Origin: a virus | Virus record (IMG/VR): IMGVR_UViG_3300030419_004857 | Coordinates: 97,266 to 161,265 of that record | Length of the DNA: 64,000 nt | Direction: 5' to 3' (one strand) | Shown here: positions 40,872-62,720 of the stretch, piece after piece | How positions within the stretch are numbered: the first letter of the stretch is position 1 | How the letters are laid out: every line of letters starts with the position of its first letter | Program-made: the position numbers and the translations under genes | The notes under the pieces: generated by a model | The model's database searches: none | The model's input: only the letters and a program-made list of their open reading frames with translations | What the model was told of the DNA's origin: nothing

Positions 40872-40888
40872 TTTTAATTCCTTTAAAG

Positions 40889-41228: not shown

Positions 41229-41234
41229 CTTGTA

Positions 41235-42411: not shown

Positions 42412-42418
42412 TATTAAG

Positions 42419-42490: not shown

Positions 42491-42495
42491 AAGCC

Positions 42496-43654: not shown

Positions 43655-43679
43655 TTTTATTTAATCCGTTGAAAATAAT

Positions 43680-43723: not shown

Positions 43724-43749
43724 AACAGGTAGAACGCTAGCCTCCGTTT

Positions 43750-44055
43750 CTAGACCTCAAGAACCTGACGAATCTTACCCCTAAGAACTTGGTAGTTTCC
43801 ACGATTTGAAGAAGCCGTAGTAGCTCCAACAATACTATCCTTAAGAGAAGTAGTCACACCCAGCTTCTTTGCAGCTTGAGTAGTGGTTCCATTACCGAGT
43901 CCCGATGAACGACAAACGGCAGTAAGAGGATTAAACTTCTTTCCACGAGTCTTGCCATTTTTGGCAGTACCAACAATCTTCTTTCCCTCTACTGTCCATG
44001 TGTAGGCAGTAGTTGTCTTATTAAGGGCCATCAAAAATTGTGTCTCAGTCATCAT
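43750..44055 (-). CDS. Hypothetical protein
   Basis: 101 residues, Lys/Thr/Gly-rich, few acidic residues. Starts METQFLMALNKTTTAYTW-like (Met-Met start). Basic composition suggests nucleic-acid or virion association. Preceded by a GGAGGAAAG site. It overlaps the coiled-coil protein by 11 bases. Confidence 0.6.
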   Translation of the reverse strand: MMTETQFLMALNKTTTAYTWTVEGKKIVGTAKNGKTRGKKFNPLTAVCRSSGLGNGTTTQAAKKLGVTTSLKDSIVGATTASSNRGNYQVLRGKIRQVLEV

Positions 44056-44197
44056 TACTTTCCTCCGGGTTATTTCCTAGTTCTTTTTCGCAATCAGCGA
44101 TATGGGCTTGCAGAGTAGCTACTTGCTTCTCTAATTCCAAGACCTTTTGTTTGCAATGCTCAATATAAGCATTAGCCATCTCTTCTTTACTCGGCAT
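44045..44197 (-). CDS. Small coiled-coil protein
   Basis: 50 residues from ATG 44197, with an excellent ribosome-binding site AGGAGG 8 bases upstream. Heptad-type sequence YIEHCKQKVLELEKQVATLQ predicts a coiled coil. Overlaps the next gene by 11 bases. Confidence 0.7.
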   Translation of the reverse strand: MPSKEEMANAYIEHCKQKVLELEKQVATLQAHIADCEKELGNNPEESNDD

Positions 44198-44225
44198 CAC
44201 GTTCCTCCTTTACCTGTTTACTTAG

Positions 44226-44543
44226 TTAATATTTCTTAACAATTTTAGGATTAGCAGATAGGCGGTTGTTTTTACCTACCGTAACAAAAAAAGAGTCTGT
44301 TATCTTAAAGCCGGGAACAACCTTGTCAGTGCTATTGTAGAATTTGCACCATACATTTACTCGCCAGTAGTTATCCCACAGATGGTTTGCATCAACTCTA
44401 AAAAAGCCTTTTGGTTTCCCTAGTCTTGATATAATCTTTTTCTTTATCTGCTCCTCTAGTTCAGAGTTATCTCCTTTTGAGCTTGGTACATCCTGATGCA
44501 TTGAGTTCACACTTTTTTCAAGAACTTGAGTTTGCACATTCAT
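44226..44543 (-). CDS. Hypothetical protein
   Basis: 105 residues, Lys-rich, with IIKRLGKPKGFFRVDANHLW-like basic and aromatic content. The N-terminal 30 residues are polar. It is transcribed from a recognisable promoter at 44598-44626. Unknown function. Confidence 0.65.
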   Translation of the reverse strand: MNVQTQVLEKSVNSMHQDVPSSKGDNSELEEQIKKKIISRLGKPKGFFRVDANHLWDNYWRVNVWCKFYNSTDKVVPGFKITDSFFVTVGKNNRLSANPKIVKKY

Positions 44544-44597
44544 TCTCTCTTTCCCAAATAAACAATCCTGTTTTAGAGACTATCCCGCTCTATCACA

Positions 44598-44626
44598 ATG
44601 ATACGCTTTTGATGGGAAAATGTCAA
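44598..44626 (-). promoter_or_regulatory. Sigma70-type promoter
   Basis: Minus strand TTGACA (44621-44626), 17-base spacer, TATCAT (44598-44603). It would drive the gene ending at 44226 and genes beyond it. Confidence 0.75.
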
Positions 44627-44643
44627 CACTTTTTTAATTTTTT

Positions 44644-44859
44644 TTATTCTGCAAAAGACTCTTCCTCGGTAGAAATAACATTAAATGAGTCCTTAACGTA
44701 TCTACTATCATTCACGCCTCCTTCTGGAATGTCTATATCTGATATTAGATCCTCCAGAAGATAGTCTTCACTATAAAGATTTTCATCTTCATCTGTTTCT
44801 TCTGGAACTAAAACAGTACAGTCGTAGCTCACGGTGTATCGAACCTTATAAGTCCTCAT
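44644..44859 (-). CDS. Small acidic protein
   Basis: 71 residues, acidic (EETDEDENLYSEDYLLEDLI), probably beta-rich at the N-terminus (YKVRYTVSYDCTVLVPEE). The ATG overlaps the stop of the upstream gene (ATGA), supporting it. Acidic phage proteins often mimic DNA or bind host proteins. Confidence 0.65.
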   Translation of the reverse strand: MRTYKVRYTVSYDCTVLVPEETDEDENLYSEDYLLEDLISDIDIPEGGVNDSRYVKDSFNVISTEEESFAE

Positions 44860-45023
44860 AGATTATACTCCCAGATCAACCAGCCAATACCAAGACCTAC
44901 ACCGAGTATGAGAAGATTGTAAAAACTTATAGTTAACATATCAAGTATATCATATCTTCTAAACTTTGGCTCCACTTTAAGTTCTCCCGTCTCTTTAGTA
45001 AGTATCTTGTTTTTATCCACCAC
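44856..45023 (-). CDS. Small single-TM protein (GTG start)
   Basis: 55 residues starting at GTG 45023 (or 45020), with AGAGGAG upstream. Polar N-terminus, then a hydrophobic helix ISFYNLLILGVGLGIGWLIW. Stop overlaps the next start as ATGA. Topology suggests membrane anchoring with a cytoplasmic N-terminus. Confidence 0.6.
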   Translation of the reverse strand: MVDKNKILTKETGELKVEPKFRRYDILDMLTISFYNLLILGVGLGIGWLIWEYNL

Positions 45024-45025
45024 GT

Positions 45026-45262
45026 CTACTCCTCTAGCTTATACAGATTTAAGAAGCGCTTAAAATATATCGCATTAGCTATGTTAATAATCTTGTTATA
45101 TTCTTCTGTTGATAGTGTAATGCTGGAGTGAGTTAGAACTTCAGAGCCATCAAAGATGGATTGAGTTACCGTCAGGCTGGCATCATCCATATCAAAAAAG
45201 GCCACTGTCTCAGTTTCCCTATTGGTTTTCTTAGACTTGTCTTTTTCATCGTATATAATCAT
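45026..45262 (-). CDS. Small hypothetical protein, paralogue of 42496-42699
   Basis: 78 residues from ATG 45262, overlapping the GMP-reductase stop (TAATG). Mixed charge, with TETVAFFDMDDASLTVTQSI and SSITLSTEEYNKIINIANAI. Clear similarity in the last part to the 42.5-kb protein. Unknown function. Confidence 0.65.
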   Translation of the reverse strand: MIIYDEKDKSKKTNRETETVAFFDMDDASLTVTQSIFDGSEVLTHSSITLSTEEYNKIINIANAIYFKRFLNLYKLEE

Positions 45263-46305
45263 TAGTAGTGAACCCTTCCAACTCTTACGAAAGTTGCGCA
45301 TTTTGGAAAGTCTTTTAGATTTCTTGCACCTACATAAGCACAGGCGCTTCTTAAGCCTCCTGTAATTTGTTGGACAATATTAGAGACCGGTCCTTTATAA
45401 TCTACAAACATGGACTTACCTTCTGATGTTCTATAATTTCCTACGCCACCATTGTGTGCATCCATAGCATCTTCGCTAGACATTCCATAAAACTTTAAAG
45501 ACTTATTTTCTCCTTCATATTCCCATTTGCCTTCACATTCCTCGGTCCCGGCAAACATGCTTCCAAGCATAACAAAATCGGCCCCAGCGGCAAAAGCCTT
45601 AACGACATCGCCAGATGTCCTGCATCCGCCATCTGCACAGATATGACCGTTTAGACCATGAGCCGCATCCGCACATTCTATAATAGCTGACAACTGAGGA
45701 TAACCGCAACCTGTTACCATTCTAGTTGTGCATACACTACCCGGCCCGATACCAATTTTAACTATGTCGGCCCCACCACTGATTAGTAGTTCGCTTACCA
45801 TCTCTGGCGTACACACGTTTCCAGCCATAATTACAGACTCTGGAAACATCTCTCTAATACGTTTAACGTGATCTACAAAAACTTTTTGATAGCCGTTTGC
45901 CACATCAATACATATTTTATGTATGCCAAGACCCTCTTCCTCTATATCTGGAAGTTGATCATCAACCTCTAGCAGTTTATCAACCTCTTCTTCTTTTATA
46001 CCCAAAGTGTAGAATGTATTTCGTCTGGGGTGAAAAGTAAAGTAGTCTACTAAATCGTCTACCTCGTAGAATTTATGAAGACAGGTTTGCATTCCGTAGT
46101 CATGTAGGCTGTCAGACATTTCCATAGTGCCTACAGTGTCCATGTTAGCGGCAACAATAGGAACAACAAGCTCTTTTACTGGCACATGAAGATAGTGATA
46201 TTCTTTTCGGATATCCACTCTAGACCTACTGGTAAGAGTAGACCTTTTCGGCCTGATAAGAACATCATCAAAATCCAGCTTAATTCCGTCCGCTATGATA
46301 ACCAT
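45262..46305 (-). CDS. guaC: GMP reductase
   Basis: 347 residues. LDFDDVLIRPKRSTLTSRS at the N-terminus, GIGPGSVCTTRMVTGCGYPQ with the catalytic Cys, KFYGMSS and GGLRSACAYVGA. The lack of CBS domains and the sequence favour GMP reductase over IMP dehydrogenase. It converts GMP to IMP, recycling purines toward adenine nucleotides. It lies in a tight run with the small zinc-metalloprotease-like gene. Confidence 0.9.
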   Translation of the reverse strand: MVIIADGIKLDFDDVLIRPKRSTLTSRSRVDIRKEYHYLHVPVKELVVPIVAANMDTVGTMEMSDSLHDYGMQTCLHKFYEVDDLVDYFTFHPRRNTFYTLGIKEEEVDKLLEVDDQLPDIEEEGLGIHKICIDVANGYQKVFVDHVKRIREMFPESVIMAGNVCTPEMVSELLISGGADIVKIGIGPGSVCTTRMVTGCGYPQLSAIIECADAAHGLNGHICADGGCRTSGDVVKAFAAGADFVMLGSMFAGTEECEGKWEYEGENKSLKFYGMSSEDAMDAHNGGVGNYRTSEGKSMFVDYKGPVSNIVQQITGGLRSACAYVGARNLKDFPKCATFVRVGRVHY

Positions 46306-46308
46306 TCT

Positions 46309-46566
46309 TTATTTCCTCCAACCTAATCTCCAAAGCACGGTAGCAATTTCACTTGCCGTCTGTTCAACCCATTCTTCATCCTTCCACCAGTCAGCAGCGT
46401 GAAGTAGTTCATGTAATAGTGTATCTAGCTCCTCTTTACCTTCTATATCCTTAGATATTTTTATCTTCTTTTCGGGTATATGTGGGGCGTCACATTTTCC
46501 TAAATATTTTCCCTTCATTTTGGAAAAGATTAAGTCCCAATACTTTCCGCCTACTTTTATTCTCAT
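46309..46566 (-). CDS. Small HExxH metalloprotease-like protein
   Basis: 85 residues. LDTLLHELLHAADWW holds an HELLH motif with a following Glu-containing stretch (EEWVEQTASEIATVL). Zinc metallopeptidase or SprT-type fragment; too short for most known families, so a minimal domain. It overlaps the acyl-CoA dehydrogenase by 4 bases. Confidence 0.65.
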   Translation of the reverse strand: MRIKVGGKYWDLIFSKMKGKYLGKCDAPHIPEKKIKISKDIEGKEELDTLLHELLHAADWWKDEEWVEQTASEIATVLWRLGWRK

Positions 46567-48422
46567 ACTTGTTCATCGTATCTCATAAGTATAGAATCAT
46601 ATGCGTTTCCATTCTGGGGATTTGCTAGAGTTTTACCAAGAGATACGCTCTTTCTAATTTGAAGATCCGTTGGGTGACTGCCTGTTATTTTATTTTTTAG
46701 GTTCTCGCAAGATACATCCGCTATAGCGGCCATTAGTGGGTCTGCTTTAGCAAAGGTATAGCAGACTGTAACCATCATAGTCACTAAATGTTGTATTCTT
46801 CGAGAAAGAATAGACATTCTGCATTGCTTATCCGCTAATCCTAGTTGGTATTTACGCATAAGACCGCTAATTTCTAAAGCGGATCGTTGAAGACCTCGAA
46901 TGGCATAGTTCGCGTGATCTATTATATTACTATTGAATCCTATTGGACGAATTCCCCTCTTGGGAAGGATGGTTTCTTTGATTAGCCACTCGGCATAGGG
47001 CGTGAATGTTTTATAGTTCTTTATTATATCTATAGGGCTTAAACTCTTCTTACCTAGACCGGACATTAACTTTCCAACAGGTTCAAAGAAGGTGGAGCCA
47101 TGATCTTTTACCAGACTTTTGAAAAAGGCCATATTTAACATATCGCCCTCGCCCTCATAAATTAGCGGGGCAAGAACATCGTGAATGTTGTCACCTACTA
47201 CATGACCACCCAAAAAGGATCTTCCGCCATGAGTTTTCATGCAAAGGTCTATAGCCGCTTCTTTCTGACACTCAGACCCAAAAGTTTTGGCTATAATACA
47301 TTCTAATTCTCCTCTGTAACCTTTGTCAATAAGACCTGAACACCAAGCAACAAGGGCATCTGAGGATAGTATATATCCAGCTAGCCTAGCGATACGCTCC
47401 TGCACTAACTCTCTGTTCTTAATCGACTGCCCATATGTTGATCTGTAGCTTGCCCAAGGTATCATAGATTCTAACATTGTCTTCATGCAGCCTGACGCAT
47501 TAGCACACAAAGAAATTCTACCTAAGTTTAACCCATGATATGCTACAGTCAAACCATCGCCCCTGTCCAACTCTATTAAGTTTTCTTTAGGGACTCTATG
47601 ATTCGTAAAGATTAGTGAATTGTTATTTAATCTTCTAAGAGCATGAATTTTATAGTGTCCAATTCTAAAAGTGTCAGTATCGCCGTCAGGGATTTCTACC
47701 AATAGAACTTGTGGCTTATTGTTTATTTGGCATACAACAGAAACAAGTCCTCCATAGTGGACGTTTGTGATAAATAGCTTTGTTCCATTCAGGATGTAAT
47801 GATCCCCATCCAATTTAGCATATGTTTTCAACGCTGTCAAGTCTGATCCTGCACATGGTTCGGTTAAAGCAAAAGCAGAAAGAAAAGTTCCATCAGCAAG
47901 TCCCGGCAAATACTTTTCTTTTTGATATTCATTTCCAAATGTTCTAACGGGATCTACTGATCCTATGCAGCCGTGAATCGAACACATACCAGCCACGCTA
48001 GGTTCAATCCTAGCCATCTCTGTAAGAAAGGATGAAAACTCTGAAAATGATAGGGCTGGTTTATTTGGCAATGGAACCAGTAAGCCGTAATAGCCACTAT
48101 CAGATAATGCTTGAATCACCTCTTTGGTTAACTTATCTTCGGATGTATACATCGCATCATCTGACTGATATTTTTTTACAATATCAATACAGTTGTTGAG
48201 CATGGTAGAGTTCGGTCTGTGAAAATCAAACTCAAAGAATTCCCTAGTAGGGAACTCTCGGCTCCATACAGCTTTAAATGCTGGACTATTCTTGGTTTGA
48301 TGCTTATCATCAAACAGTTCCTCTACCTGATCGTCTGCTATATCTACCTTGCCTATACTGGTAGACTCTGCTGCGGTCTTACCGCTTAACTCCATAGCAG
48401 TTTCAGCAAAAGATTTACTCAT
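46563..48422 (-). CDS. Acyl-CoA dehydrogenase with C-terminal extension
   Basis: 619 residues. Core motifs: FALTEPCAGSDLTALKTYAK (FAD/substrate site), FITNVHYGG, and IYEGEGDMLNMAF with the catalytic Glu. A 100-residue N-terminal extension and a C-terminal domain of about 150 residues resemble longer FadE-type and VLCAD-type enzymes. It makes trans-2-enoyl-CoA from acyl-CoA with FAD, step one of beta-oxidation, passing electrons to ETF or the respiratory chain. It overlaps the metalloprotease-like gene by 4 bases. Confidence 0.9.
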   Translation of the reverse strand: MSKSFAETAMELSGKTAAESTSIGKVDIADDQVEELFDDKHQTKNSPAFKAVWSREFPTREFFEFDFHRPNSTMLNNCIDIVKKYQSDDAMYTSEDKLTKEVIQALSDSGYYGLLVPLPNKPALSFSEFSSFLTEMARIEPSVAGMCSIHGCIGSVDPVRTFGNEYQKEKYLPGLADGTFLSAFALTEPCAGSDLTALKTYAKLDGDHYILNGTKLFITNVHYGGLVSVVCQINNKPQVLLVEIPDGDTDTFRIGHYKIHALRRLNNNSLIFTNHRVPKENLIELDRGDGLTVAYHGLNLGRISLCANASGCMKTMLESMIPWASYRSTYGQSIKNRELVQERIARLAGYILSSDALVAWCSGLIDKGYRGELECIIAKTFGSECQKEAAIDLCMKTHGGRSFLGGHVVGDNIHDVLAPLIYEGEGDMLNMAFFKSLVKDHGSTFFEPVGKLMSGLGKKSLSPIDIIKNYKTFTPYAEWLIKETILPKRGIRPIGFNSNIIDHANYAIRGLQRSALEISGLMRKYQLGLADKQCRMSILSRRIQHLVTMMVTVCYTFAKADPLMAAIADVSCENLKNKITGSHPTDLQIRKSVSLGKTLANPQNGNAYDSILMRYDEQV

Positions 48423-48622
48423 TTTTCTCCTTCATCTTCCAACCAAGGAACTTTTTGACCATTGTGATCCACTTGAATAAAACCACACCCCTCACACAAA
48501 ACTGTGACTACAAGACCTTGTTCAACTTCTTCTTTTGTAAGAAGTCCAGCAAAATCACACTCGGCCTCATTAGTCTTACTACCAAACAAAAAATTACTAC
48601 AATCCAAACAGAAATCAGCCAT
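48419..48622 (-). CDS. Small cysteine-rich protein
   Basis: 67 residues. FCLDCSNF at the N-terminus and CEGCGFIQVDHNGQKVPW further on give a CxxC/CxxC pair likely to bind zinc. It overlaps the acyl-CoA dehydrogenase by 4 bases. Small conserved phage-type protein of unknown role. Confidence 0.65.
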   Translation of the reverse strand: MADFCLDCSNFLFGSKTNEAECDFAGLLTKEEVEQGLVVTVLCEGCGFIQVDHNGQKVPWLEDEGEK

Positions 48623-48624
48623 AA

Positions 48625-49245
48625 CTAGTCTCTCCTAGCTGTGAATACGAAAACATCCATGTAGTTTTCGTCGATTCCCTCAACATCTCTAGATATAGAA
48701 TTGCCGTCGTGCCATACTTCTCTATCATTAAATACAACAACTTCTCCCGGCTTCATTAACATACTCCAGACGGGATGCTCATCTTTATCGTCAAATACTA
48801 ACAGTTCGCCCCCGCACACATTGTGTCTGGCTATAGAAAATATACCAACAGCATCATACCCATCTTGATGTGGACCTTCTGGGGATAATTCAGCCATCAC
48901 AGAACTATGAGGAACCGTAACTCTCATTTGATGAACTTCCACGTTCTCCACGTCGAGATCGCCAGCCTGTCTAAATAGACCTAACATTTTTTTGAAGCAT
49001 TTGGTATTAACTACAGATTCTTGAATCGGCTCGAACTCTCTAGCTATATCCCCCTGATACTTATTATAGTCAGAGGATTGAGTAAATATACTTCCATCTA
49101 CAGGTGAGCCTAGAAAATCTATAACAGAATATCGTCTAAGTCTAAATTCACTATCTTTATGTCCCGTGTGTGGAAGATCATTAAATGATGACCTAACTTC
49201 ATCAACTAATTCGTCAGGTAGTCTATCTAAGATAAGTTTATGCAT
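48625..49245 (-). CDS. 2-oxoglutarate/Fe(II) dioxygenase (PF10014-like)
   Basis: 206 residues. PEGPHQDGYDAVGIFSIARHNVCGGELLVF carries the His-x-Asp metal pair, and VVVFNDREVWHDGN gives the second His and nearby Arg. The family includes amino-acid hydroxylases such as L-isoleucine dioxygenase. It would hydroxylate a free amino acid or similar substrate. Whether this links to the lysine cassette at 32-36 kb is not shown. Confidence 0.8.
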   Translation of the reverse strand: MHKLILDRLPDELVDEVRSSFNDLPHTGHKDSEFRLRRYSVIDFLGSPVDGSIFTQSSDYNKYQGDIAREFEPIQESVVNTKCFKKMLGLFRQAGDLDVENVEVHQMRVTVPHSSVMAELSPEGPHQDGYDAVGIFSIARHNVCGGELLVFDDKDEHPVWSMLMKPGEVVVFNDREVWHDGNSISRDVEGIDENYMDVFVFTARRD

Positions 49246-49249
49246 TTTT

Positions 49250-49456
49250 CTACTCCATTATACTGTCGTGATAGTAACACACCAGTTCCCACCCTCTAAG
49301 ATTTTTTAACTCTTTTTGAAATTTAGATATTCCTACTATAAACCTATGACTTACCCACTCTTTTCTTAGTTCGATTGGTAATGTAAGAAAAGAATTTATG
49401 CCTTTGGTTTTTCTCTGGAAAAGAGCATATACTACAACTATATCTTCTCTAGCCAT
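49250..49456 (-). CDS. Hypothetical protein
   Basis: 68 residues, basic, with a hydrophobic start (REDIVVVYALFQRK). Overlaps the next gene by 8 bases. Unknown function. Confidence 0.6.
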   Translation of the reverse strand: MAREDIVVVYALFQRKTKGINSFLTLPIELRKEWVSHRFIVGISKFQKELKNLRGWELVCYYHDSIME

Positions 49457-49736
49457 CTACCCCGTCGCTTGAAGGAATATCTATACCTAATTCTTCTATA
49501 CAATACTTATTAAGTGCTTCTCTTGCTTCTTTTTCTGTGTTGTATGGTCCGTAAGAATCCAACCAAATCTCATCCCAGAAATACCAACCTGCTTCTCTAT
49601 TTTCCGGTCTAGCATATTCAACATGGTCGTGAGGTATAAACTCTTTTAAGTTTAACTTTTCTCTAAACTCTTTCTTTTCCTCGTCACTTAATCTAATGTA
49701 TCTATACCAGCACTCTTTAGTTGCCTGACTGTTCAT
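49449..49736 (-). CDS. Small protein with GWYFW...GPY motif
   Basis: 95 residues. GWYFWDEIWLDSYGPYNTEK and EAREALNKYC parallel the protein at 53.6-53.8 kb (GWYYFYGGQLWGPYDSKEE). The shared element is an aromatic-rich strand followed by a short helix. Unknown function. Overlaps both neighbours by 8-20 bases. Confidence 0.6.
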   Translation of the reverse strand: MNSQATKECWYRYIRLSDEEKKEFREKLNLKEFIPHDHVEYARPENREAGWYFWDEIWLDSYGPYNTEKEAREALNKYCIEELGIDIPSSDGVDG

Positions 49737-50013
49737 GGGTCATCTCATTTATGTCTAATTGTTTTTCTAAAGATTTATACATAAGGTTGCATGATATTTT
49801 AGCAATAGCCACACACTCCTCTCTCCTCTCTAGATCATCCTCCCCCATATAATCGGCTACAGCTTCAATAAACGAATACAGTACAATAGCTAACGACGGA
49901 TTATCTTTTTCTAAAGCAGAGGCAAATTCCTCTAGACCAAACATTTCATGCTTAGCATAAACCTCGTCTATTATACTCTCTACAGTTATACCTTTAACGT
50001 ATGGTAATTTCAC
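49717..50013 (-). CDS. Hypothetical helical protein
   Basis: 98 residues, acidic, predicted mostly helical (DEVYAKHEMFGLEEFASALE, LYSFIEAVADYMGE). Overlaps the enoyl-CoA hydratase-like gene by 4 bases and the neighbour by 20. No family recognised. Confidence 0.6.
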   Translation of the reverse strand: MKLPYVKGITVESIIDEVYAKHEMFGLEEFASALEKDNPSLAIVLYSFIEAVADYMGEDDLERREECVAIAKISCNLMYKSLEKQLDINEMTHEQSGN

Positions 50014-50975
50014 CCTCTTTCTCCGTTAAGGAACTTCTGTACCAGTTCTCTGCATTCGTCGCTCCTGACCAGTGGAATAAAAGCCTTACGCTCCATTTCC
50101 AGTGACTCATGCCTATGCATCGTTCTAGTTTTCTTTAGCACCTCTAAGGCTTTATAAGGAGAGGGGTACTTATTAGGGTCGCCAAACATCTTCTTCTGCT
50201 TCTTTTTGATGCTATACTTAACAAGTGGATAAGTTATACTGGCTCGGAACCTACCCATGCTGGTGGGGTTGATTTTATCATTCCTAATTTGCCAGAGAAG
50301 AATATTATTATTACTGAGATCGTTAATAACTTTACGGGCAGTATTCATAGCTTCGCTGTACTCTACTATACTATCAACCAGACCAATTTTCAATGCCTCT
50401 TTTTGTTTTACATTCCTTCCCGTACAAATAAGTTCAATAGCCTTGGTGGGATCAATGATTCGAGGCAGTCTGGTAGTCCCTCCCCATGAAGGCAAAATGC
50501 CTAGCTTAACTTCTGGCAACGCCAGCTTGGTAAGTTGTAGGGTAGTGTACTCTGGATTTTCTGGAACAGGGTCTTTAACCAAAATCCTAGTGGTACAAGC
50601 TAGAGCTAATTCTAGCCCTCCACCCATCGTTGTTCCCTTGATTATCGAGCAGGTAGGTATAGGTAAGTCTTCAATTCGGTTGAGTACATCTTGTCCCTCA
50701 GTTAAGAACCCATTTATTGTTTCATCATCTGCATCGTGTGCTGTAACAAATATTTTAATGTTAGCACCAACTATAAATGTTGACTTGTTGCTGCTAAATA
50801 TAACACCTTTGTAATCCCCTTTTTCCGCTACACCAACAAGAACCTCTAATTCCTGAAGGGTTTGCGTGTCAAGAAAATTATATGGTCTTTTCATATGGTC
50901 AAAGACGATATGCATAATATCATTGTGTCTATACGCTTTAAAATTTTCTAATGTTTCGCCTTTAAGTAACATCAT
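50010..50975 (-). CDS. Enoyl-CoA hydratase/isomerase, equal to the N-terminal half of FadB/FadJ
   Basis: 321 residues. GANIKIFV is the oxyanion-hole loop; PTCSIIKGTTMGGGLELALAC and PEVKLGILPSWGGTTRLPRI match FadJ-type hydratases. After residue about 260, KYPSPYKALEVLKKTRT and ERKAFIPLVRSDECRELVQKF match the linker that in FadB/FadJ joins hydratase to dehydrogenase; here the protein ends. It hydrates trans-2-enoyl-CoA. It pairs functionally with 41235-42257. The start could be either of two adjacent ATGs. Confidence 0.9.
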   Translation of the reverse strand: MMLLKGETLENFKAYRHNDIMHIVFDHMKRPYNFLDTQTLQELEVLVGVAEKGDYKGVIFSSNKSTFIVGANIKIFVTAHDADDETINGFLTEGQDVLNRIEDLPIPTCSIIKGTTMGGGLELALACTTRILVKDPVPENPEYTTLQLTKLALPEVKLGILPSWGGTTRLPRIIDPTKAIELICTGRNVKQKEALKIGLVDSIVEYSEAMNTARKVINDLSNNNILLWQIRNDKINPTSMGRFRASITYPLVKYSIKKKQKKMFGDPNKYPSPYKALEVLKKTRTMHRHESLEMERKAFIPLVRSDECRELVQKFLNGERG

Positions 50976-56210: not shown

Positions 56211-56288
56211 CACTGGCCCAGCGCTTCCCGCGCACGAGCGGGCTAGCTCTCGTAGGACGAGGCTGGTACGCCCCGTTCTACCTTAACC
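56211..56288. repeat. Intergenic repeat element, copy A
   Basis: About 78 bp. Read on the minus strand it begins GGTTAAGGTAGAACGGGGCG and ends GGGCCAGTGAAAAATATTT, matching the ends of copies B-E, with different interior hairpins. It lies beyond a minus-strand terminator. Confidence 0.65.
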
Positions 56289-56311
56289 TATAGGTTGTCA
56301 AGACCTATATT

Positions 56312-56344
56312 AAAAAAAACCCGCCCCGGCGAACCGGAGCGGGC
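56312..56344 (-). terminator. Rho-independent terminator of the DUF932 unit
   Basis: Hairpin with CCCGC-CCGG stem and CGAA loop, followed by eight Ts on the minus strand. The same CCGG-CGAA-CCGG loop is used at 61.34 kb. Confidence 0.88.
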
Positions 56345-56367
56345 TTCTTACTAATAGCAGTTGTTGG

Positions 56368-56445
56368 TTAGTCTTCAGATAATGCGTATCCTATAACGAA
56401 GCTACCAAGTCCTATTAGTGCGACCATACAAATTATCATCTCCAT
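56368..56445 (-). CDS. 25-residue membrane peptide
   Basis: From ATG 56445: EMIICMVALIGLGSFVIGYA is one membrane helix, ending in a short acidic tail. GGGGGG precedes the start by 8 bases. It follows the DUF932 gene before the terminator. Confidence 0.45.
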   Translation of the reverse strand: MEMIICMVALIGLGSFVIGYALSED

Positions 56446-56460
56446 GATGTTGACCCCCCT

Positions 56461-57717
56461 CTAAGCGGCCAACACCGCCTTGCTGGAAAAGATTCGGGCA
56501 AAGTCATCGTCCTCGTATTCCGCAGCGCGGTTACAAACACGATCCCACTGGTTGTCGTTGTAGTTGACCAACTTGCCACCAAGCTGATCGAACTTCACCC
56601 AGTTGTCATTTCCAAGGAACTGACCAGCGCGGGTGACACTGTTGACAACCCCGAACAGGTTACGATTCTCGCCGGGAGTCTTCGACTCGAACATAACCCA
56701 TGCTTCGAGAACGGCAGTCGCTTCACGCTTCTGCAACTTCTCGATGTCGGAAACCGCAGCGATAACCGACTTCATCGTGTTGCCTTCGTTCTCCTTCAGG
56801 CGAACACCCAGCAGTCTCTCAATACCAGCGGGGAGCAGGGGAATCTGCACCTCGATGTTATTGCGAATCTTCTTGGAAAGCTGATCGAGGTCGATGTCAC
56901 CGATGTGGCGAACACGAATCTCACTACCCTTAGTTTGTCCCCAGATGCATCCGTTCATGCAGATGGCTCGGAACAGACTGGGCATCGACAACACGTTGCG
57001 TTTGCCGATCTCACAGTTTCCAATGCTCACCATCCCGCCGTAATCGGAATCCTCTTCCTCGCGGATGGTATCGGGAATCAGGACGTTGCCGTAAATAGTA
57101 TCGGCATTGCCACGCCAGTGGCTCAGACGGCCACTCGGGATAATATCCTCGATCTGCTCCAAGTACCAACGATTGTCAACCTCGGCGTATTTCTCACTGA
57201 GGAAAGCACGCATCGTGCCATCGTCGTAGGTGCGAACCTTGTACTTGGTATCAGGCTTGTCCTCACGGATTCGACGGAACCCGTTTTCGATAATAGCCTG
57301 AATCGTCTCAGCATCCTGATAGTCACGCTTGTAACGAGTCTCCTCTTTGGCGTTGACCTGATCCTCAGTCAGCCAGCGAGTAAAACCCGTGCCTTTGCCC
57401 TCGCACAACTTCGCTGTCATTTGTGAGAGCGCATGGTTGTTAGGAACAAAGTTCTGATCGTCAACAGAGACGACAAACCGGGGTTTGCCATCAACGTCCT
57501 CGATTCCGAATTCCAACTCCGAAACTGGAACAAGGTAGTCCTGACGATGGCCTTGCTCGGCCTCCAACAATTCCATCCCCTGATCGTAGCTGATCGTCTT
57601 GGGATACCAGTGCTTTGACACATGGCCGAACCCCTCATCAGAGGCAACGCCTTGCTGGTCATAAACCCACTGGCCTTCTTGGTTCGCTCCGTCATACGCT
57701 TCAATTCTTTCGTTCAT
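56461..57717 (-). CDS. DUF932-like phage protein
   Basis: 418 residues from ATG 57717, selected because a promoter's -10 box (57755-57760) lies inside the longer frames. Sequence features such as SLFRAICMNGCIWG, YAEVDNRWYLEQIE and the C-terminal WVKFDQLGGKLVNYNDN are consistent with DUF932/TIGR03299-type phage and plasmid proteins of unknown function. GGAG precedes the ATG by 8 bases. GC-rich codon use contrasts with the genes left of 55 kb. It is in a unit of its own, with promoter and terminator. Confidence 0.78.
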   Translation of the reverse strand: MNERIEAYDGANQEGQWVYDQQGVASDEGFGHVSKHWYPKTISYDQGMELLEAEQGHRQDYLVPVSELEFGIEDVDGKPRFVVSVDDQNFVPNNHALSQMTAKLCEGKGTGFTRWLTEDQVNAKEETRYKRDYQDAETIQAIIENGFRRIREDKPDTKYKVRTYDDGTMRAFLSEKYAEVDNRWYLEQIEDIIPSGRLSHWRGNADTIYGNVLIPDTIREEEDSDYGGMVSIGNCEIGKRNVLSMPSLFRAICMNGCIWGQTKGSEIRVRHIGDIDLDQLSKKIRNNIEVQIPLLPAGIERLLGVRLKENEGNTMKSVIAAVSDIEKLQKREATAVLEAWVMFESKTPGENRNLFGVVNSVTRAGQFLGNDNWVKFDQLGGKLVNYNDNQWDRVCNRAAEYEDDDFARIFSSKAVLAA

Positions 57718-57754
57718 CTTCGTCACTCCAAAAGTCTGGTTTCTGTACTTGTTC

Positions 57755-57783
57755 ATAGTAACATAAGTAGCCAAGAAAGTCAA
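57755..57783 (-). promoter_or_regulatory. Sigma70-type promoter for the DUF932 gene
   Basis: Minus strand TTGACT (57778-57783), 17-base spacer, TACTAT (57755-57760), about 40 bases before the start. Confidence 0.75.
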
Positions 57784-57837
57784 GAGAAAAGCAGGGCCAC
57801 CCCGTAGGGTGACCCCACTTTCTCCCGCGACGGATGA

Positions 57838-58143
57838 CTACTCCGAAGCGGTCTCGGCCTCGTCACTGTCGGCCATCAGGCTTGCGAGGTAATCGCCAGC
57901 CAAGGCAGCAGCCTCGTCGTAAGACGAACCGCTCCGACCCTGCCTCTTGAGCTTGGGCAGTTTGATGCCCCGCTCTGCGAGTGCGGGAGTCAGCGCGTTC
58001 TTCTTCTGACGCGCCTGTTCAACCGACCGACCCAACTCATCAGCAACGTCGGCAATTGTGCCGCCGTTCTGGTGAACCTTGACATACGCCTCAACGAATG
58101 CCGTTGCCGAAATCGCCTCTGCTCGTTGCTTCTTCTCACTCAT
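57838..58143 (-). CDS. Small HTH-containing protein
   Basis: 101 residues from ATG 58143; the longer frame is excluded by the promoter -10 box. VHQNGGTIADVADELGRSVE and a following KKNALTPALAE segment look like a helix-turn-helix. C-terminus acidic. Possible regulator of neighbouring promoters. Confidence 0.7.
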   Translation of the reverse strand: MSEKKQRAEAISATAFVEAYVKVHQNGGTIADVADELGRSVEQARQKKNALTPALAERGIKLPKLKRQGRSGSSYDEAAALAGDYLASLMADSDEAETASE

Positions 58144-58207
58144 GTTTTCATCTCCGTTCGCTTCCAAAGTCTTGCCGGTGAAACACTCACCAACTCTCAA
58201 TGTCTCC

Positions 58208-58235
58208 ATTATATGTTATCGTCACGATATGTCAA
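58208..58235 (-). promoter_or_regulatory. Sigma70-type promoter with palindromic spacer
   Basis: Minus strand TTGACA (58230-58235), 16-base spacer TATCGTGACGATAACA, TATAAT (58208-58213). The spacer contains the palindrome TATCGT-G-ACGATA, a candidate operator. Confidence 0.88.
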
Positions 58236-58274
58236 GAGTCTTTAGCCCCGTTTGGCAAAAAAACGAAATTTTTT

Positions 58275-58359
58275 TCACTGACTGGCACACAAGGCGACCC
58301 CGTGACATGATCGGCGTGGGTTAGCAGGGACGGCTTACATCGCCGCGTTTTACCCGAAC
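58275..58359. repeat. Intergenic repeat element, copy B
   Basis: About 85 bp. Minus strand begins GTTCGGGTAAAACGCGGCG and ends TGTGTGCCAGTCAGTGAAAA. It shares about 30 near-identical bases with copy E at the CCAG end. It lies between the small peptide gene and the promoter at 58208. Confidence 0.7.
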
Positions 58360-58445
58360 TATCTCGAAAAGTACCGCATATATAGTTCGAATGCATAAAG
58401 ACCTACATAGGCCCACGCTGCTATAATTATCAAGAGGTCTCGCAT
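58359..58445 (-). CDS. 28-residue membrane peptide
   Basis: From ATG 58445: RDLLIIIAAWAYVGLYAFEL then YMRYFSR, one hydrophobic helix with basic ends. It overlaps the upstream gene by 16 bases in another frame. Ends exactly at repeat copy B. Confidence 0.5.
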   Translation of the reverse strand: MRDLLIIIAAWAYVGLYAFELYMRYFSR

Positions 58446-58870
58446 AGCTCACCTTCCGGCTCTAGGGCCATCACTGTCGGGGCGTTCCGATCATTGTCCT
58501 TATACATAGCAACGTAGTTTGCTCTATATACCGGGATCGGATGCTGATCATCACACACACCAGTCCGCTCTACAAACGTCTCGTGCTTATAAGGGTTATA
58601 CATCACCCACACCTGTTTATCGTAGAACCCATTCCACACCATCCGGTCAACGCTACACGGATCTTCCAACAGGTAACCGCTCACACCGGCGTGGACGTTC
58701 TTCTTTCCTTCACGTCGAACCCTCGCCTGTCCAGCCTTGCCGACGAGGAACTTACAATCCCGCAACGATAGCAGGTGGGCGTGGTCCACGATAAGCCCGG
58801 ACTGTCTCACACTCCACAGTTTCCGGTGGAGATTCCAGTAGACATAAACCCGCTTATTATAGTCGATCAT
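58430..58870 (-). CDS. Hypothetical phage protein
   Basis: 146 residues, basic, starting IDYNKRVYVYWNLHRKLWSV, with LLSLRDCKFLVGKAGQARVR and REGKKNVHAGVSGYL. I have the impression of this pattern in many phages, without a function. Followed by the zinc-binding gene with 4-base overlap. Confidence 0.7.
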   Translation of the reverse strand: MIDYNKRVYVYWNLHRKLWSVRQSGLIVDHAHLLSLRDCKFLVGKAGQARVRREGKKNVHAGVSGYLLEDPCSVDRMVWNGFYDKQVWVMYNPYKHETFVERTGVCDDQHPIPVYRANYVAMYKDNDRNAPTVMALEPEGELCETS

Positions 58871-59067
58871 TCCTCATCCCCGAACAGGTTATCAAAACAC
58901 GGGCCGCACATCCCACTTATGAGAACTTCCCGTTCATCCGCCGACAGGTAGGGCATGGCGTTCTGAATCAGTTCGCCATTCTCCCAAGCTTCATAGTCCT
59001 CCGCTTGGACCTGCATTTCCACCTGCCCCTTGCACCGGTTACACGTTGCCCACAATTTCGTCATCAT
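58867..59067 (-). CDS. Small zinc-binding protein
   Basis: 66 residues; CNRCKGQVEM near residue 9 and CGPCFDNLFGDE near 54 form two CxxC pairs. Overlaps the Gp88-like gene by 4 bases. Unknown role. Confidence 0.65.
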   Translation of the reverse strand: MMTKLWATCNRCKGQVEMQVQAEDYEAWENGELIQNAMPYLSADEREVLISGMCGPCFDNLFGDEE

Positions 59068-59867
59068 TTCGTCACCTTCCTAGAATAAGAACCTTTACCC
59101 TTCAACTCTCGCAACGCCGTCGCCGCTTCCGTTCCTTTGGGCTGTGTCCCGTGCAGCAGCAGAGCGAAACTCTGGTCCCGCAAGCTAGGCCGAGCAGCGT
59201 GGGAATCGTCGTGGTCAATTTCCGCTCCAAGACGATCCGCTTCCGCTTCCGAGAACACAACCGTGGCAGACCGCAAACCCTCCGTGGCAATCAAGTGATC
59301 GTCACGTCCACCATAGGATGCCGTCAATACCATATTCTCTGGGATATTATCCCGATTGTCAACCCAGTATTTTAGGCTTTTGGTGTAGGCATAGAACAGT
59401 CTATCGGGATGCGTTTCGGCAATAAACATCCACGCCTTGAAATAGCTCGCGTTGAAGAAATCACCCGCAACGTGAATCCGACAGATGCCGAGATTCTCGG
59501 GCATTGAATCCCTGAGCATATCGGACATATGCCAATCGTTGCCGGGATGCTCACTCAACTGCCGGAAGTTGTGGGATCGGGAATTGTACACGTTGGTGTA
59601 TTGGGCTTCCTGCGATGCCGAGAAACAACGGAACTTCGTATTCGGCCCATCGACAACTTTCCGCTTGCCGCTATAATCAACAGTCACAGCTTTCGATAGG
59701 CACTCGTTAGCAAACGGGCACGAGTGTCCCGACAACAGGTCAAGACTATAGATCTTGCGTCCACCTTCAAGGTACGCCGCCAGTTCAGGAACTTCCGACA
59801 TTGCGTGTGTCTTGGCGTTGGCTCGGGAGTAGTTGACGGTTTCCAGCGGATAGATTGATTGTGCCAT
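59064..59867 (-). CDS. Gp88-like phage protein
   Basis: 267 residues from ATG 59867 (the -10 box of the promoter is at 59901-59906). Conserved-looking blocks: SLDLLSGHSCPFANECLSK, FRCFSASQEAQYTNVYNSR, and GICRIHVAGDFFNASYFKAW. These resemble the phage Gp88 (PF17338) family, whose function is unknown. Several cysteines (CPFANEC, RCF) could bind metal. Probably expressed early from its own promoter. Confidence 0.75.
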   Translation of the reverse strand: MAQSIYPLETVNYSRANAKTHAMSEVPELAAYLEGGRKIYSLDLLSGHSCPFANECLSKAVTVDYSGKRKVVDGPNTKFRCFSASQEAQYTNVYNSRSHNFRQLSEHPGNDWHMSDMLRDSMPENLGICRIHVAGDFFNASYFKAWMFIAETHPDRLFYAYTKSLKYWVDNRDNIPENMVLTASYGGRDDHLIATEGLRSATVVFSEAEADRLGAEIDHDDSHAARPSLRDQSFALLLHGTQPKGTEAATALRELKGKGSYSRKVTK

Positions 59868-59900
59868 TGTGTGCCCTTGTGTTGTGTTTGTTACTCCCCC

Positions 59901-59928
59901 ATTATATACAGTTATCGGCACATGTCAA
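59901..59928 (-). promoter_or_regulatory. Sigma70-type promoter with 16-base spacer
   Basis: Minus strand TTGACA (59923-59928), 16-base spacer containing CCGATAA, TATAAT (59901-59906). Confidence 0.88.
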
Positions 59929-59969
59929 CCCCCAACTCCAACAAAATCCGACATCCCACCAAAATATTT

Positions 59970-60048
59970 CGCTGGCCCACCGTGGCCCTTCACGGCGAGC
60001 GGCAAGGATGTGGCGCGACACATCCGCCGCTGCGTTTTACCCGAACCG
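59970..60048. repeat. Intergenic repeat element, copy C
   Basis: About 79 bp. Minus strand begins CGGTTCGGGTAAAACGCAGC and ends GGGCCAGCGAAATATTTTGG. Interior hairpin GCGGCGGATGTGT/ACATCC. Downstream of the 48-residue gene and upstream of the 59901 promoter. Confidence 0.7.
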
Positions 60049-60195
60049 CTACTTACCCTCCCCTCGCATTTTTTTCCAAGTTGTCTTGTCGCAGAACGCC
60101 CACCCGTCCGCGACCAATTTCTTGATAGCATCCCACTGGGCCTTAGTGGAATCCTTCACCCGCTTGAACTCGTCGCCCTTACGCAATGTCTTCAT
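60049..60195 (-). CDS. Small basic phage protein
   Basis: 48 residues from ATG 60195: KTLRKGDEFKRVKDSTKAQW followed by a basic C-terminus. I recall similar small phage proteins. It ends next to repeat copy C. The 50-residue gene upstream overlaps it by 17 bases. Confidence 0.75.
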   Translation of the reverse strand: MKTLRKGDEFKRVKDSTKAQWDAIKKLVADGWAFCDKTTWKKMRGEGK

Positions 60196-60331
60196 TCGTC
60201 ATCTCCCTAAGTTCTTGGTTATCATCAACCATCATGCCGGTGAAGATTACCACCTCACCCTCGGTATCCTCACCAACGTGGCACAGCGGAAAGTGTTTCA
60301 ACGCAATCCTGAAAACGTCATCAAGCGTCAT
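60179..60331 (-). CDS. Small phage protein
   Basis: 50 residues from ATG 60331: TLDDVFRIALKHFPLCHVGE, EGEVVIFTGMMVDDN. Small alpha/beta domain. Overlaps the 60321-60854 gene by 11 bases and the 48-residue gene by 17. Confidence 0.7.
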   Translation of the reverse strand: MTLDDVFRIALKHFPLCHVGEDTEGEVVIFTGMMVDDNQELREMTNEDIA

Positions 60332-60854
60332 CAAAGTCAAGCTCCTTCTGTCCGGGCAACGGGTACGGGAACTGATCGCTAGGTGCGGAATCTTCTTCCA
60401 TCACCTTACGCTCATCTTCCCAAAGTTTCGGATCATCACGGTAGTCAACGTGTTCGAGACTAGAAATCATCCGGTTGCCAAGGCTATTCTCGTTAGCTTC
60501 CGGGTTGACCAGTTGCGAAGCCAGATTGATGAAATCCAGCACTTCCTGAATGGTCATGTATCCGCACACGTCATCGTAGAAAGTTTCCACGTCCTCGCTA
60601 CCGATAGGCCCGGTGAATCCCGGCACGCCAACCCAAGACAGGTTGCTACCAGTAAGGTAGGCAGCACACTCAGCGAGGTTGGAACCCCAGAATTCCCCAT
60701 TCGCAGCCGCCTTGGCGGGGGCGTCGAATCCCGCATTCCTCACCTCTTGGTCGGCGTAGTTCCCCGGTCCAAACTGAACCGAAACGGTAACGCCGTTGGG
60801 CAGATCCAGATGGAATCCCTTGCCTTCAGTAATCCGCATAGCCTTGTCGCGCAT
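60321..60854 (-). CDS. Hypothetical phage protein
   Basis: 177 residues from ATG 60854, with GGGAG 9 bases upstream; ATGs at 60863 and 60875 are alternatives. The first 40 residues include GKGFHLDLPNGVTVSVQFGP; the C-terminus is acidic and Pro-rich. No family recognised. A promoter lies at 60923-60951. Confidence 0.7.
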   Translation of the reverse strand: MRDKAMRITEGKGFHLDLPNGVTVSVQFGPGNYADQEVRNAGFDAPAKAAANGEFWGSNLAECAAYLTGSNLSWVGVPGFTGPIGSEDVETFYDDVCGYMTIQEVLDFINLASQLVNPEANENSLGNRMISSLEHVDYRDDPKLWEDERKVMEEDSAPSDQFPYPLPGQKELDFDDA

Positions 60855-60922
60855 GTCATTCATCTCCCTATTCATTCCAACCAAGCCAGTCAGCTAACCA
60901 ACAAACGAAACCCAATAACACT

Positions 60923-60951
60923 AGTATACAGGCAAACGATCCCCATGTCAA
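60923..60951 (-). promoter_or_regulatory. Sigma70-type promoter
   Basis: Minus strand TTGACA (60946-60951), 17-base spacer, TATACT (60923-60928), about 70 bases before the 60854 start. Confidence 0.8.
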
Positions 60952-61157
60952 CATAGCTGCTCCATAATTGCGGTGCGATTCTGTGACGACCGTGTCCGGT
61001 TGCGTTTAGTTCGCCTGTCCTTGTGCTTTCCCGCTCCCGCCTTATTGACGGAATGAATCCTTCCAACCTTCCACGGCTCGTCGTCAAGTGTGATCGTGAT
61101 GCAGTCAGCACCAAACTCGATCATTCCACGGTTCATCTTCTTCGTCTTGCGTTTCAT
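60948..61157 (-). CDS. Small basic protein
   Basis: 69 residues. Lys/Arg-rich ends (KRKTKKMNRG, RTKRNRTRSSQNRT) with a central EFGADCITITLDDEPWKVGR. Likely nucleic-acid binding. Promoter directly upstream. Confidence 0.65.
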   Translation of the reverse strand: MKRKTKKMNRGMIEFGADCITITLDDEPWKVGRIHSVNKAGAGKHKDRRTKRNRTRSSQNRTAIMEQLC

Positions 61158-61186
61158 GTCTTGCTCCGTCGTTGCGTTACTCCTCC

Positions 61187-61214
61187 ATTATAGTATATTA
61201 TCGTCCAATGTCAA
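61187..61214 (-). promoter_or_regulatory. Sigma70-type promoter with 16-base spacer
   Basis: Minus strand TTGACA (61209-61214), 16-base spacer containing CGATAA, TATAAT (61187-61192). Confidence 0.88.
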
Positions 61215-61251
61215 CACCGATCTTGAGGTTTTCTCGATTTATTTTCTGACT

Positions 61252-61328
61252 CACTGGCACGGGGGTTGCTTCTCTTCGAGCGGCGAGCTTGTGGAAAGAC
61301 AAGCTCGCCGCGCAGTTTTACCCCATCC
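61252..61328. repeat. Intergenic repeat element, copy D
   Basis: About 77 bp. Minus strand begins GGGGTAAAACTGCGCGGCG and ends CCCGTGCCAGTGAGTCAGAAA. Interior perfect hairpin GCGGCGAGCTTGT/ACAAGCTCGCCGC. It lies between a minus-strand terminator and the promoter at 61187. Confidence 0.7.
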
Positions 61329-61331
61329 AAT

Positions 61332-61365
61332 AAAAAACCCCCGCACCGGCGAACCGGAACGGGGG
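61332..61365 (-). terminator. Rho-independent terminator
   Basis: Hairpin CCCCCG-CCGG with CGAA loop, followed by six Ts on the minus strand. It ends the unit that begins at the promoter 62300-62327. Confidence 0.9.
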
Positions 61366-61604
61366 CCAGCGACTGAGGAAAGGGCGAAACTCCAAGCCGC
61401 TGTATGTAATATGGGTGGGCGGGACTTACAATATTACCCGCATCTTTTCGGGGTTGGATATGGCAACGGGTTTGACCCGCTTCCCTACTTCCGAACCACT
61501 TCGCACAGCCTCACCCAGTCGGGCCTACTCTGTGCTTGGTGTGCGTTACCGTCTCCAACTGGCTCCGGTTATTCCGCCACCACCCTAAACGGGGAGCTAC
61601 CCCG
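61366..61604 (-). other. 240-base non-coding stretch, possible structured 3' RNA
   Basis: No convincing gene. Transcribed from the same unit as the gene ending at 61605 and ending in a strong terminator. It holds several G/C-rich complementary segments (for example GCGGGT...ACCCGC near 61440-61480 and GGCGGG...CCCGCC). It may be an untranslated structured RNA. RNase P-like features were looked for and not found convincingly. Confidence 0.35.
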
Positions 61605-61781
61605 CTACTTAGTTTCCTCCAATGTCACTTTGATCTTCTGAGGTGCGTTCTTGCCGAGAATGTACTTCTGGATGTAGATGGTATTGACCACTGGGGCCAC
61701 CCCCTCATCCGGCGTCTCGCTATATCGCACCGTGTTCTTGGTTTCCTTTTCCAGTTCAAACGTCGCGGTTGTCGTCTTCAT
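61605..61781 (-). CDS. Small hypothetical protein
   Basis: 58 residues from ATG 61781: TTTATFELEKETKNTVRYSE and YIQKYILGKNAPQKIKVTLE. Beta-strand-rich, probably a small fold. It lies 2 bases after the 61784 gene. Confidence 0.75.
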   Translation of the reverse strand: MKTTTATFELEKETKNTVRYSETPDEGVAPVVNTIYIQKYILGKNAPQKIKVTLEETK

Positions 61782-61783
61782 GC

Positions 61784-61963
61784 TTACGCCCTTCGCAGGT
61801 TACTAATCTTGGGTTGTGAGAACGTCTTGTGTGTCCCATCGTCTTGTGCGATGATGACATAGACGCCTTTGGGACCATTCCCAACCTTCTCAATGCGACC
61901 ACTCCGAGCCTTGTCGTGGTAGTCAAACTTCACGCTCGCGCCTCTTCCAATGTACGTCGTCAT
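61784..61963 (-). CDS. Small basic protein
   Basis: 59 residues from ATG 61963: TTYIGRGASVKFDYHDKARS, KGVYVIIAQDDGTHKTFS. Short beta-barrel-like sequence. ATGA overlap with the 61960-62265 gene supports it. Confidence 0.7.
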   Translation of the reverse strand: MTTYIGRGASVKFDYHDKARSGRIEKVGNGPKGVYVIIAQDDGTHKTFSQPKISNLRRA

Positions 61964-62265
61964 TCAACCGTCTCCTCTTCACCAAACAAACTTGCCATTT
62001 CAGCCGCAGCCATCTGCGACTTGATCATCCTGTACACCACGCCGACCACAGCCATACCCGCTGCGGTTCGTGCCGCTTCCGCTTCCTCGCTTTCCATACC
62101 AGTAGTGAGGAAGTTGGTCAGCAGGAAGCTGATAGCCGCCAGCAGATCGGGTTGCTCTCGGAGCAACTCCTCAGTAATTTCCAGTGCGAAGTTGCCGAAG
62201 TCCTGTTGTGTGGATTTCTCCATCACAGCAATCGTACACTCTCGCGTCACTCTCGGAATCGTCAT
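61960..62265 (-). CDS. Hypothetical helical protein
   Basis: 101 residues, mostly helical, Glu/Ala/Met-rich (ESEEAEAARTAAGMAVVGVV). First gene of a unit behind the promoter 62300-62327. Slightly hydrophobic centre, but no clear membrane helix. Confidence 0.65.
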   Translation of the reverse strand: MTIPRVTRECTIAVMEKSTQQDFGNFALEITEELLREQPDLLAAISFLLTNFLTTGMESEEAEAARTAAGMAVVGVVYRMIKSQMAAAEMASLFGEEETVE

Positions 62266-62299
62266 CTCGTCGCCTTTCTGTTTGCCGTTTCGATATCCA

Positions 62300-62327
62300 A
62301 TTATACCACAGGTGCTGTGGTTGTCAA
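62300..62327 (-). promoter_or_regulatory. Sigma70-type promoter with palindromic spacer
   Basis: Minus strand TTGACA (62322-62327), 16-base spacer ACCACAGCACCTGTGG, TATAAT (62300-62305). CCACAG-CAC-CTGTGG is a perfect palindrome and a candidate operator. Confidence 0.9.
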
Positions 62328-62330
62328 GCC

Positions 62331-62534
62331 CTAATAACAGCCTTCGCTTTCCCCGTGCCAGATTTCGTCAGCGATTGCGAGGGCGTCGTCCTCGTCCTCG
62401 ACATCCGCCACGCATTCGTAAACGAAGTCTTCCGGGCCATCCGCCACGGGTCGCCACACCTCAAACACCCCACCGTATCGGGGGCAGTAGACAACCTGAA
62501 TGCCATCAATCTCGTAAACCACTTCGCCGTGCAT
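62331..62534 (-). CDS. Small acidic protein, paralogue of 63502-63789
   Basis: 67 residues from ATG 62534: HGEVVYEIDGIQVVYCPRYG and FEVWRPVADGPEDFVYECVA, acidic C-terminus. The EIDGIQVVY...YEVW...CVAD core matches the protein at 63.5-63.8 kb. Its own promoter is at 62567-62594. Confidence 0.7.
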   Translation of the reverse strand: MHGEVVYEIDGIQVVYCPRYGGVFEVWRPVADGPEDFVYECVADVEDEDDALAIADEIWHGESEGCY

Positions 62535-62566
62535 CTCGTTCTCCCTTTCGTTTGCGTTACTCCCCC

Positions 62567-62594
62567 ATTATAGTATATTATCGGCATATGTCAA
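62567..62594 (-). promoter_or_regulatory. Sigma70-type promoter with 16-base spacer
   Basis: Minus strand TTGACA (62589-62594), 16-base spacer TATGCCGATAATATAC, TATAAT (62567-62572). The clearest example of the CCGATAA spacer class. Confidence 0.9.
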
Positions 62595-62634
62595 GGCCAC
62601 TCTCCACTAAATCCGGCACTTTCTCAAAAAAATC

Positions 62635-62720
62635 CGCTGGCTGGCACACAAGCCGACCCCGCGACATCAAGCGGCGCGGTTGTCCAAAGACACCGCGCCG
62701 TCCCGTTTCACCCGAACCGG
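62635..62720. repeat. Intergenic repeat element, copy E
   Basis: About 86 bp. Minus strand begins CCGGTTCGGGTGAAACGGGA and ends TGTGTGCCAGCCAGCGGATT. Interior hairpin GGCGCGGTGTC/ACCGCGCC. The CCAG-end half is nearly identical to copy B. Confidence 0.7.

Follow-up and report, generated by a model that had tools for sequence, protein, structure and literature searches.

Introduction

The reshuffling of accessory genes in large phages is mostly put down to chance or to homologous exchange. Cassettes made up of a promoter and a stem-loop, and linked to module shuffling, have reportedly been described in T4-type phages by Arbiol et al. in 2010 and Comeau et al. in 2014. REP elements, which are associated with RAYT transposases, have a short conserved GTAG box located 5' of an intergenic hairpin, with a possible role at mRNA 3' ends. 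The T4-type cassettes go by the name of promoter-early stem-loops (PeSLs; cited in PMC4503421). The extended start-associated sequences (ESAS) of cluster K mycobacteriophages are 17-bp inverted repeats with consensus arms and a spacer of mostly 4-13 bp; they adjoin a 13-bp box, GGGATAGGAGCCC, that lies 3' of the repeats, and are located at start codons (PMC3203893). Here we describe a family of intergenic elements, each consisting of a conserved box followed by a hairpin, which is present in the last 64 kb (positions 97266-161265, hereafter the window) of the 161,265-base IMG/VR marine phage record IMGVR_UViG_3300030419_004857 (hereafter G000). A preliminary description of the window had noted five co-oriented copies, named A to E, and we show that these belong to a larger, lineage-specific repeat family in large marine phages of a little-known lineage.

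Results

All five copies were confirmed at their window coordinates on the minus strand, and all of them scored with R1, a covariance model built from 34 hand-picked copies:

56211-56285, minus strand: copy A; box GGTAGAAC at 56275-56282, degenerate hairpin region and GGGCCAGTGA tail; beyond the last terminator, as had been noted before; R1 20.3 bits; fold z -1.8
58275-58357, minus strand: copy B; box and tail retained, hairpin decayed; R1 21.1 bits; fold z +0.8
59970-60044, minus strand: copy C; box, hairpin and tail; R1 49.4 bits (used in building R1)
61252-61325, minus strand: copy D; box, perfect 13-bp hairpin and tail; 9 nt past a terminator T-run; R1 45.3 bits (used in building R1); fold z -3.8
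62635-62715, minus strand: copy E; box, hairpin and tail; downstream of tRNA-Asp; R1 50.5 bits (used in building R1); fold z -2.7

Copies A and B, and all copies in the records G004-G008, were left out of the building of R1; among the five window copies, A and B are thus the only independent recoveries. The earlier statement that the repeats occur only right of 56 kb proved to be an effect of the window: 16 copies on the same strand continue at contig positions ~0.7-7.1 kb, bringing G000 to 21, all on the minus strand, and R1 matched nowhere else, neither in the remaining window nor in the contig outside its accessory region. Relatives were reached via the DUF932 gene that adjoins copy A. The numbers of R1 copies per viral record are 21 in G000 (plus one partial match on the reverse strand), 10 in G001, 3 in G002, 8 in G003, 3 in G004, 2 in G005, 6 in G006, 2 in G007 and 11 in G008, and a specific pattern search added two more viral records having two copies each. 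The family amounts to 70 copies in 11 viral records (49 in the ten relatives of G000), always on a single strand within a record.

The element was absent from the 15 other records having the DUF932 gene, and the specific patterns revealed no copies outside the lineage. When applied to 257 Gb of prokaryote genomes, the specific pattern search returned a single contig, PBOB01000075.1 (title: Acidiferrobacteraceae metagenome-assembled genome, Tara Red Sea), which is 99.88% identical, without gaps, to positions 2813-10572 of G000. This contig is the same phage and a second, separate record of the array; it was probably mis-binned, or else it gives a hint about the host. Neither close nor remote nucleotide matches were found among 50,697 annotated phage records, and the large terminase is ~23% identical to that of the closest isolate. 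Two extra patterns, both designed for other subtypes, were run against the collection and yielded no convincing additional phage: the loci of the first had weak R1 scores, and R1 scoring did not extend to those matches of the second that fell outside the contigs known by then. No Rfam 15 family exceeded its gathering threshold over the element (the window was searched at the gathering threshold, and part of the element zones at a relaxed E-value), and the element is recorded neither in Rfam nor in the literature searched.

The core of the element is ~58 nt long and starts with a box of consensus TNRGGTARRAC. The T at position -3 is present in 64 of 65 boxes and played no part in the picking of copies; the invariance of GGT was imposed by the search. 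The box is usually followed by GAG, directly before a hairpin with arms of mostly 12-18 bp, an arm end GCNGCTY and a loop containing GTMTCA or GTCYTA. The preliminary description had assigned conserved ends and different interior hairpins to the copies. Its first claim holds for the 5' end, which is universal, but not for the 3' end (GCCAG...GAAA), which is local to G000 and a few relatives; the tail that had been taken for this conserved end, GTGAGYCAG, is present in many G000 copies and in a few copies of relatives. As for the second, the arms do vary, but they belong to one main hairpin and not to several unrelated ones: arm sequences are free to change between copies while pairing stays.

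Covariation was assessed on an alignment of 30 long-type copies. In this alignment, 93.7% of the cells are paired, 122 cells are changed on both sides compared to 36.6 +/- 4.6 after shuffling, and the covariation score is 0.583, compared to 0.139 +/- 0.017 after shuffling and a maximum of 0.135 for slid pairings. The covariance-model test by which the preliminary description was to be refuted has instead yielded strong covariation as well as many further copies. When copies were folded singly as RNA, D and E folded better than all their shuffles and C (z -1.6) and A were marginal, with B unstructured; because the fold of A is marginal and B lacks a stable one, these two look like degenerate copies. 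The element carries no complement of its box at the 3' end. Box and loop are partly complementary (TARRAC/GTCYTA), but a pseudoknot or fixed pairing between them was rejected, as their variable letters do not track each other when copies are compared by eye.

Regarding the strand that folds, G.U pairs outnumber A.C pairs by 15 to 3 in the 30-copy alignment, and a G.G mismatch is retained in one lineage. Both observations favour folding of the sense strand, as RNA or as single-stranded DNA, which we consider the likelier case.

In the accessory region, the elements occupy gaps between small genes, in all cases on the coding strand. The box starts at most 20 nt past the upstream stop codon in 16 of 65 cases, and about ten copies start at most 14 nt from a terminator-like T-run. 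Four of the five window copies, B to E, lie upstream of a sigma70-type promoter, in agreement with the preliminary description; each of these promoters scores 10.6 on a scale specific to the present analysis:

62567-62594, minus strand: sigma70-type promoter after copy E (TTGACA-N16-TATAAT)
61187-61214, minus strand: sigma70-type promoter after copy D
59901-59928, minus strand: sigma70-type promoter after copy C
58208-58235, minus strand: sigma70-type promoter after copy B

Promoters of this type also follow most G001 copies. In addition, TTGACA is present at most 26 nt upstream of 18 of 65 boxes (expected ~1.5%), and nine copies are followed, 25-45 nt downstream, by a TGAGAC-GTCTCA palindrome; the element is therefore part of a composite regulatory strip. 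Three other assignments were discarded. An intrinsic terminator was rejected, since the hairpin is followed by no U-tract and separate true terminators lie alongside; the nearby TTGACA and the box do not form a sigma70 promoter, because a core promoter would not tolerate spacings that vary as much as theirs do (mainly 3, 7 and 15 nt); and an N4-type virion RNA polymerase using hairpin promoters was dismissed, as the 2908-aa protein is a tape measure.

The element zone has a GC content of ~0.51-0.55, compared to ~0.40 in most of the remaining contig. The record ends share only a 155-bp repeat (92%); since both fall in one element zone, this suggests that the genome is circular or circularly permuted and was broken inside that zone. 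At L005:5200-7100, beside the divergent point of the genome, six consecutive units of ~160-195 bp form a tandem array in G000, each with an element and often with a TGTWGCATAATGCWACA palindrome, and no convincing genes are found there. An HNH_3 endonuclease gene (L005:7370-7825, minus strand) borders the element zone, and in G003-G008 the element zone is immediately preceded by DNA resembling the stretch that contains this gene. A phage gene with a sigma-70 region 2 (L005:8245-8787, plus strand) is the first of the divergent plus-strand block.

Comparison of G000 with G001 (locus L010) revealed two modules that have swapped places:

60075-61226, minus strand: module X, the D-C interval; a promoter and small genes; blast match to L010 4927-6092; swapped relative to L010
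61277-62265, minus strand: module Y, the E-D interval (later genes, terminator and D); blast and open-reading-frame matches to L010 6635-7678; swapped relative to L010

The order is tRNA-Asp, element, X, element, Y, element, GP88 in G001, and tRNA-Asp, E, Y, D, X, C, GP88 in G000. The homology blocks stop 2-3 nt past the E and D hairpins and restart just before the promoters, and the elements travel with the upstream module in this pair. Copy C is similar to the copy at L010 6190, which lies downstream of the same module X. A second rearrangement, between G003 and G006, has moved units made up of an element and its downstream gene; its breaks fall at elements and, in addition, at a promoter. 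Element cores of a single genome can be 90-97% alike while the flanks on both sides are unrelated, so that the core behaves as a unit with sharp bounds, which is either dispersed or converted.

The integron integrase/tyrosine recombinase domain PF00589 was found in none of nine records, several of which are fragments, compared to 14 of 14 control genomes; for the Y1 (RAYT) transposase domain PF01797 these numbers were none of nine and 5 of 14. No serine recombinase or resolvase gene was found in the records, and a RecA/UvsX homologue is present in four of nine. Site-specific recombinases of three common kinds were not found but RecA-family proteins were, which fits homologous exchange at intergenic repeats of the sort put forward for PeSLs.

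Apart from the element family, full-length matches to the manA RNA (RF01745) below the cut-off of 55.2 bits were obtained at window positions 61409-61606 (minus strand, 24.9 bits), just upstream of the terminator that precedes copy D, and at L193:1462-1662 (minus strand, 31.1 bits). The window also carries a phage metabolic gene cluster (32587-50975) encoding an aminotransferase III, an aldehyde dehydrogenase, a GATase+SIS protein, an IMPDH/GMP reductase, an acyl-CoA dehydrogenase, a 2OG-Fe dioxygenase and an enoyl-CoA hydratase, with a tmRNA at 40886-41271 within the cluster.

Discussion

The element shares several properties with the PeSLs: it is a stem-loop near strong sigma70-type promoters, is present in many copies in a plastic accessory region, and is tied to module shuffling. 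It differs from them in having a hairpin that, unlike the one expected of a PeSL, is not an intrinsic terminator, a conserved box on the 5' side, and arms that covary freely; in some relatives it directly precedes a start codon, with no promoter. The association with promoters expected of PeSLs holds for B-E and most G001 copies and fails for several copies in G003, G005 and G006, and the link with shuffling consists of two rearrangements with breaks at elements and some at promoters, a possible but indirect sign of exchange between copies.

By the tests made, the element is not an ESAS, an attC site or a REP element. Like the ESAS, it contains inverted repeats at many intergenic sites of the non-structural half of the genome in nearly one orientation; unlike them, its arms differ freely with pairing retained and follow no shared consensus, its box is a different one located 5', GGGATAGGAGCCC is missing from its consensus, and most copies are away from start codons. 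The attC sites of integrons (PMC6393395) are likewise hairpin sites with a variable interior, lie between the genes of a one-strand array and can fold as a single strand; here, however, neither an integrase gene nor paired R boxes and R'-R'' core sites were found, the sense strand is favoured instead of the bottom strand, and the units carry promoters. REP elements also combine a short conserved box with an intergenic hairpin 3' of it in many copies per genome, but no RAYT gene was found, the box is TNRGGTARRAC and not GTAG, and the copies are co-oriented and limited to one phage region.

The preliminary description had considered a mobile element, an RNA-level element or a protein-binding spacer. 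This was broadly right in that a discrete core with a covarying hairpin disperses or is converted and lies between units at swapped modules; any of the three may be the molecular function. We give an even chance to the view that it is a PeSL-like punctuation element at the boundaries of transcription units that doubles as a junction for module shuffling. The sense strand, transcribed or single-stranded, would fold into the hairpin, and a putative phage or host factor would recognize the loop, the base of the stem and the box. This would set the boundary between adjacent units, either by forming or protecting 3' ends or by insulation. Because many copies have box and stem in common, they may also act as recombination junctions, the candidate shuffling enzyme probably being the phage RecA/UvsX homologue, by which accessory modules would be exchanged.

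Several observations weigh against this view. A stricter count on 39 distinct stems gave a G.U to A.C ratio of 12:5 (p 0.14), which is not significant alone, and the relatedness of the copies makes the strand p-values optimistic. Wobble pairs are also rarer in the elements (2%) than in 16 terminators from these phages (10%). The position relative to promoters differs among phages: in G003, G005 and G006, several hairpins are separated from a start codon by 11-13 nt that contain no promoter. The transcription insulator proposed before is possible, but a location upstream of a promoter is not constant across the family. Finally, since breaks occur at promoters too, the element is not the sole junction, and modules must break between genes anyway. 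A packaging or replication signal, which had also been suggested, received no specific support, and the 21 copies of G000 are confined to one accessory region.

A possible, though rather doubtful, alternative is that the element acts only at the RNA level, the transcribed hairpin and box binding a protein or nuclease as a 3' stabilizer, a processing site or an antitermination (put-like) signal, and that breaks occur there merely because it is intergenic. The constant location on the coding strand, the excess of G.U over A.C pairs, the retained G.G mismatch, and the closeness of 16 of 65 boxes to stop codons and of several hairpins to start codons are all consistent with such a role, which is harder to reconcile with the copies next to T-runs, where few transcripts would arrive, with the scarcity of wobble pairs and with the lack of an Rfam match.

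We consider it unlikely that the element is a site at which a phage regulator or an insulator protein binds duplex DNA, and in which the box (TARRAC) and the loop (GTMTCA/GTCYTA) would be inverted half-sites, and the hairpin a product of repeated half-sites and template switching. The distance from the box to the loop half-site falls into two classes, 11-16 and 23-27 (means 13.9 and 23.8), which are 9.9 bp apart on average. This gap, close to one helical turn of DNA, would suit such a site, as would the almost wholly Watson-Crick stems and the TGAGAC-GTCTCA palindromes, but it is equally expected from two subfamilies that differ in stem and loop length. Moreover, duplex binding does not need the strong arm covariation outside the half-sites, and the promoter spacing is variable.

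Recombination at a folded single strand is more improbable still. The one-strand arrays of genes and elements, the sharply bounded core, and the finding that in G000/G001 the element moves with the upstream module and homology stops at its 3' edge recall attC-like sites for cassette recombination; yet the searches revealed neither a tyrosine or serine recombinase nor a Y1 transposase, paired R boxes are absent, the element moves with the downstream gene in G003/G006, and some breaks are at promoters. We attach an equally slight probability to a phage-borne system in which some undescribed type of recombinase would read the box-hairpin site as a folded single strand, bounding and moving accessory-gene cassettes in an integron-like manner without an integron integrase. 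Least probable of all is a selfish MITE- or REP-like miniature repeat that does nothing for the phage. This would suit the nearly identical cores that one genome carries between unrelated flanks, the short box 5' of a hairpin and the degenerate copies A and B, but no Y1/RAYT transposase was found, orientation and intergenic placement are strict, compensatory changes imply selection on pairing, and the specific patterns show no copies beyond the lineage.

With ~70 copies, a ready covariance model and natural swaps at hand, the idea derived from PeSLs, that of punctuation doubling as a shuffling junction, becomes testable outside the T4-type phages. One compact, conserved and structured element marks module boundaries in this marine phage lineage, and it may help to explain how accessory genes are rearranged.

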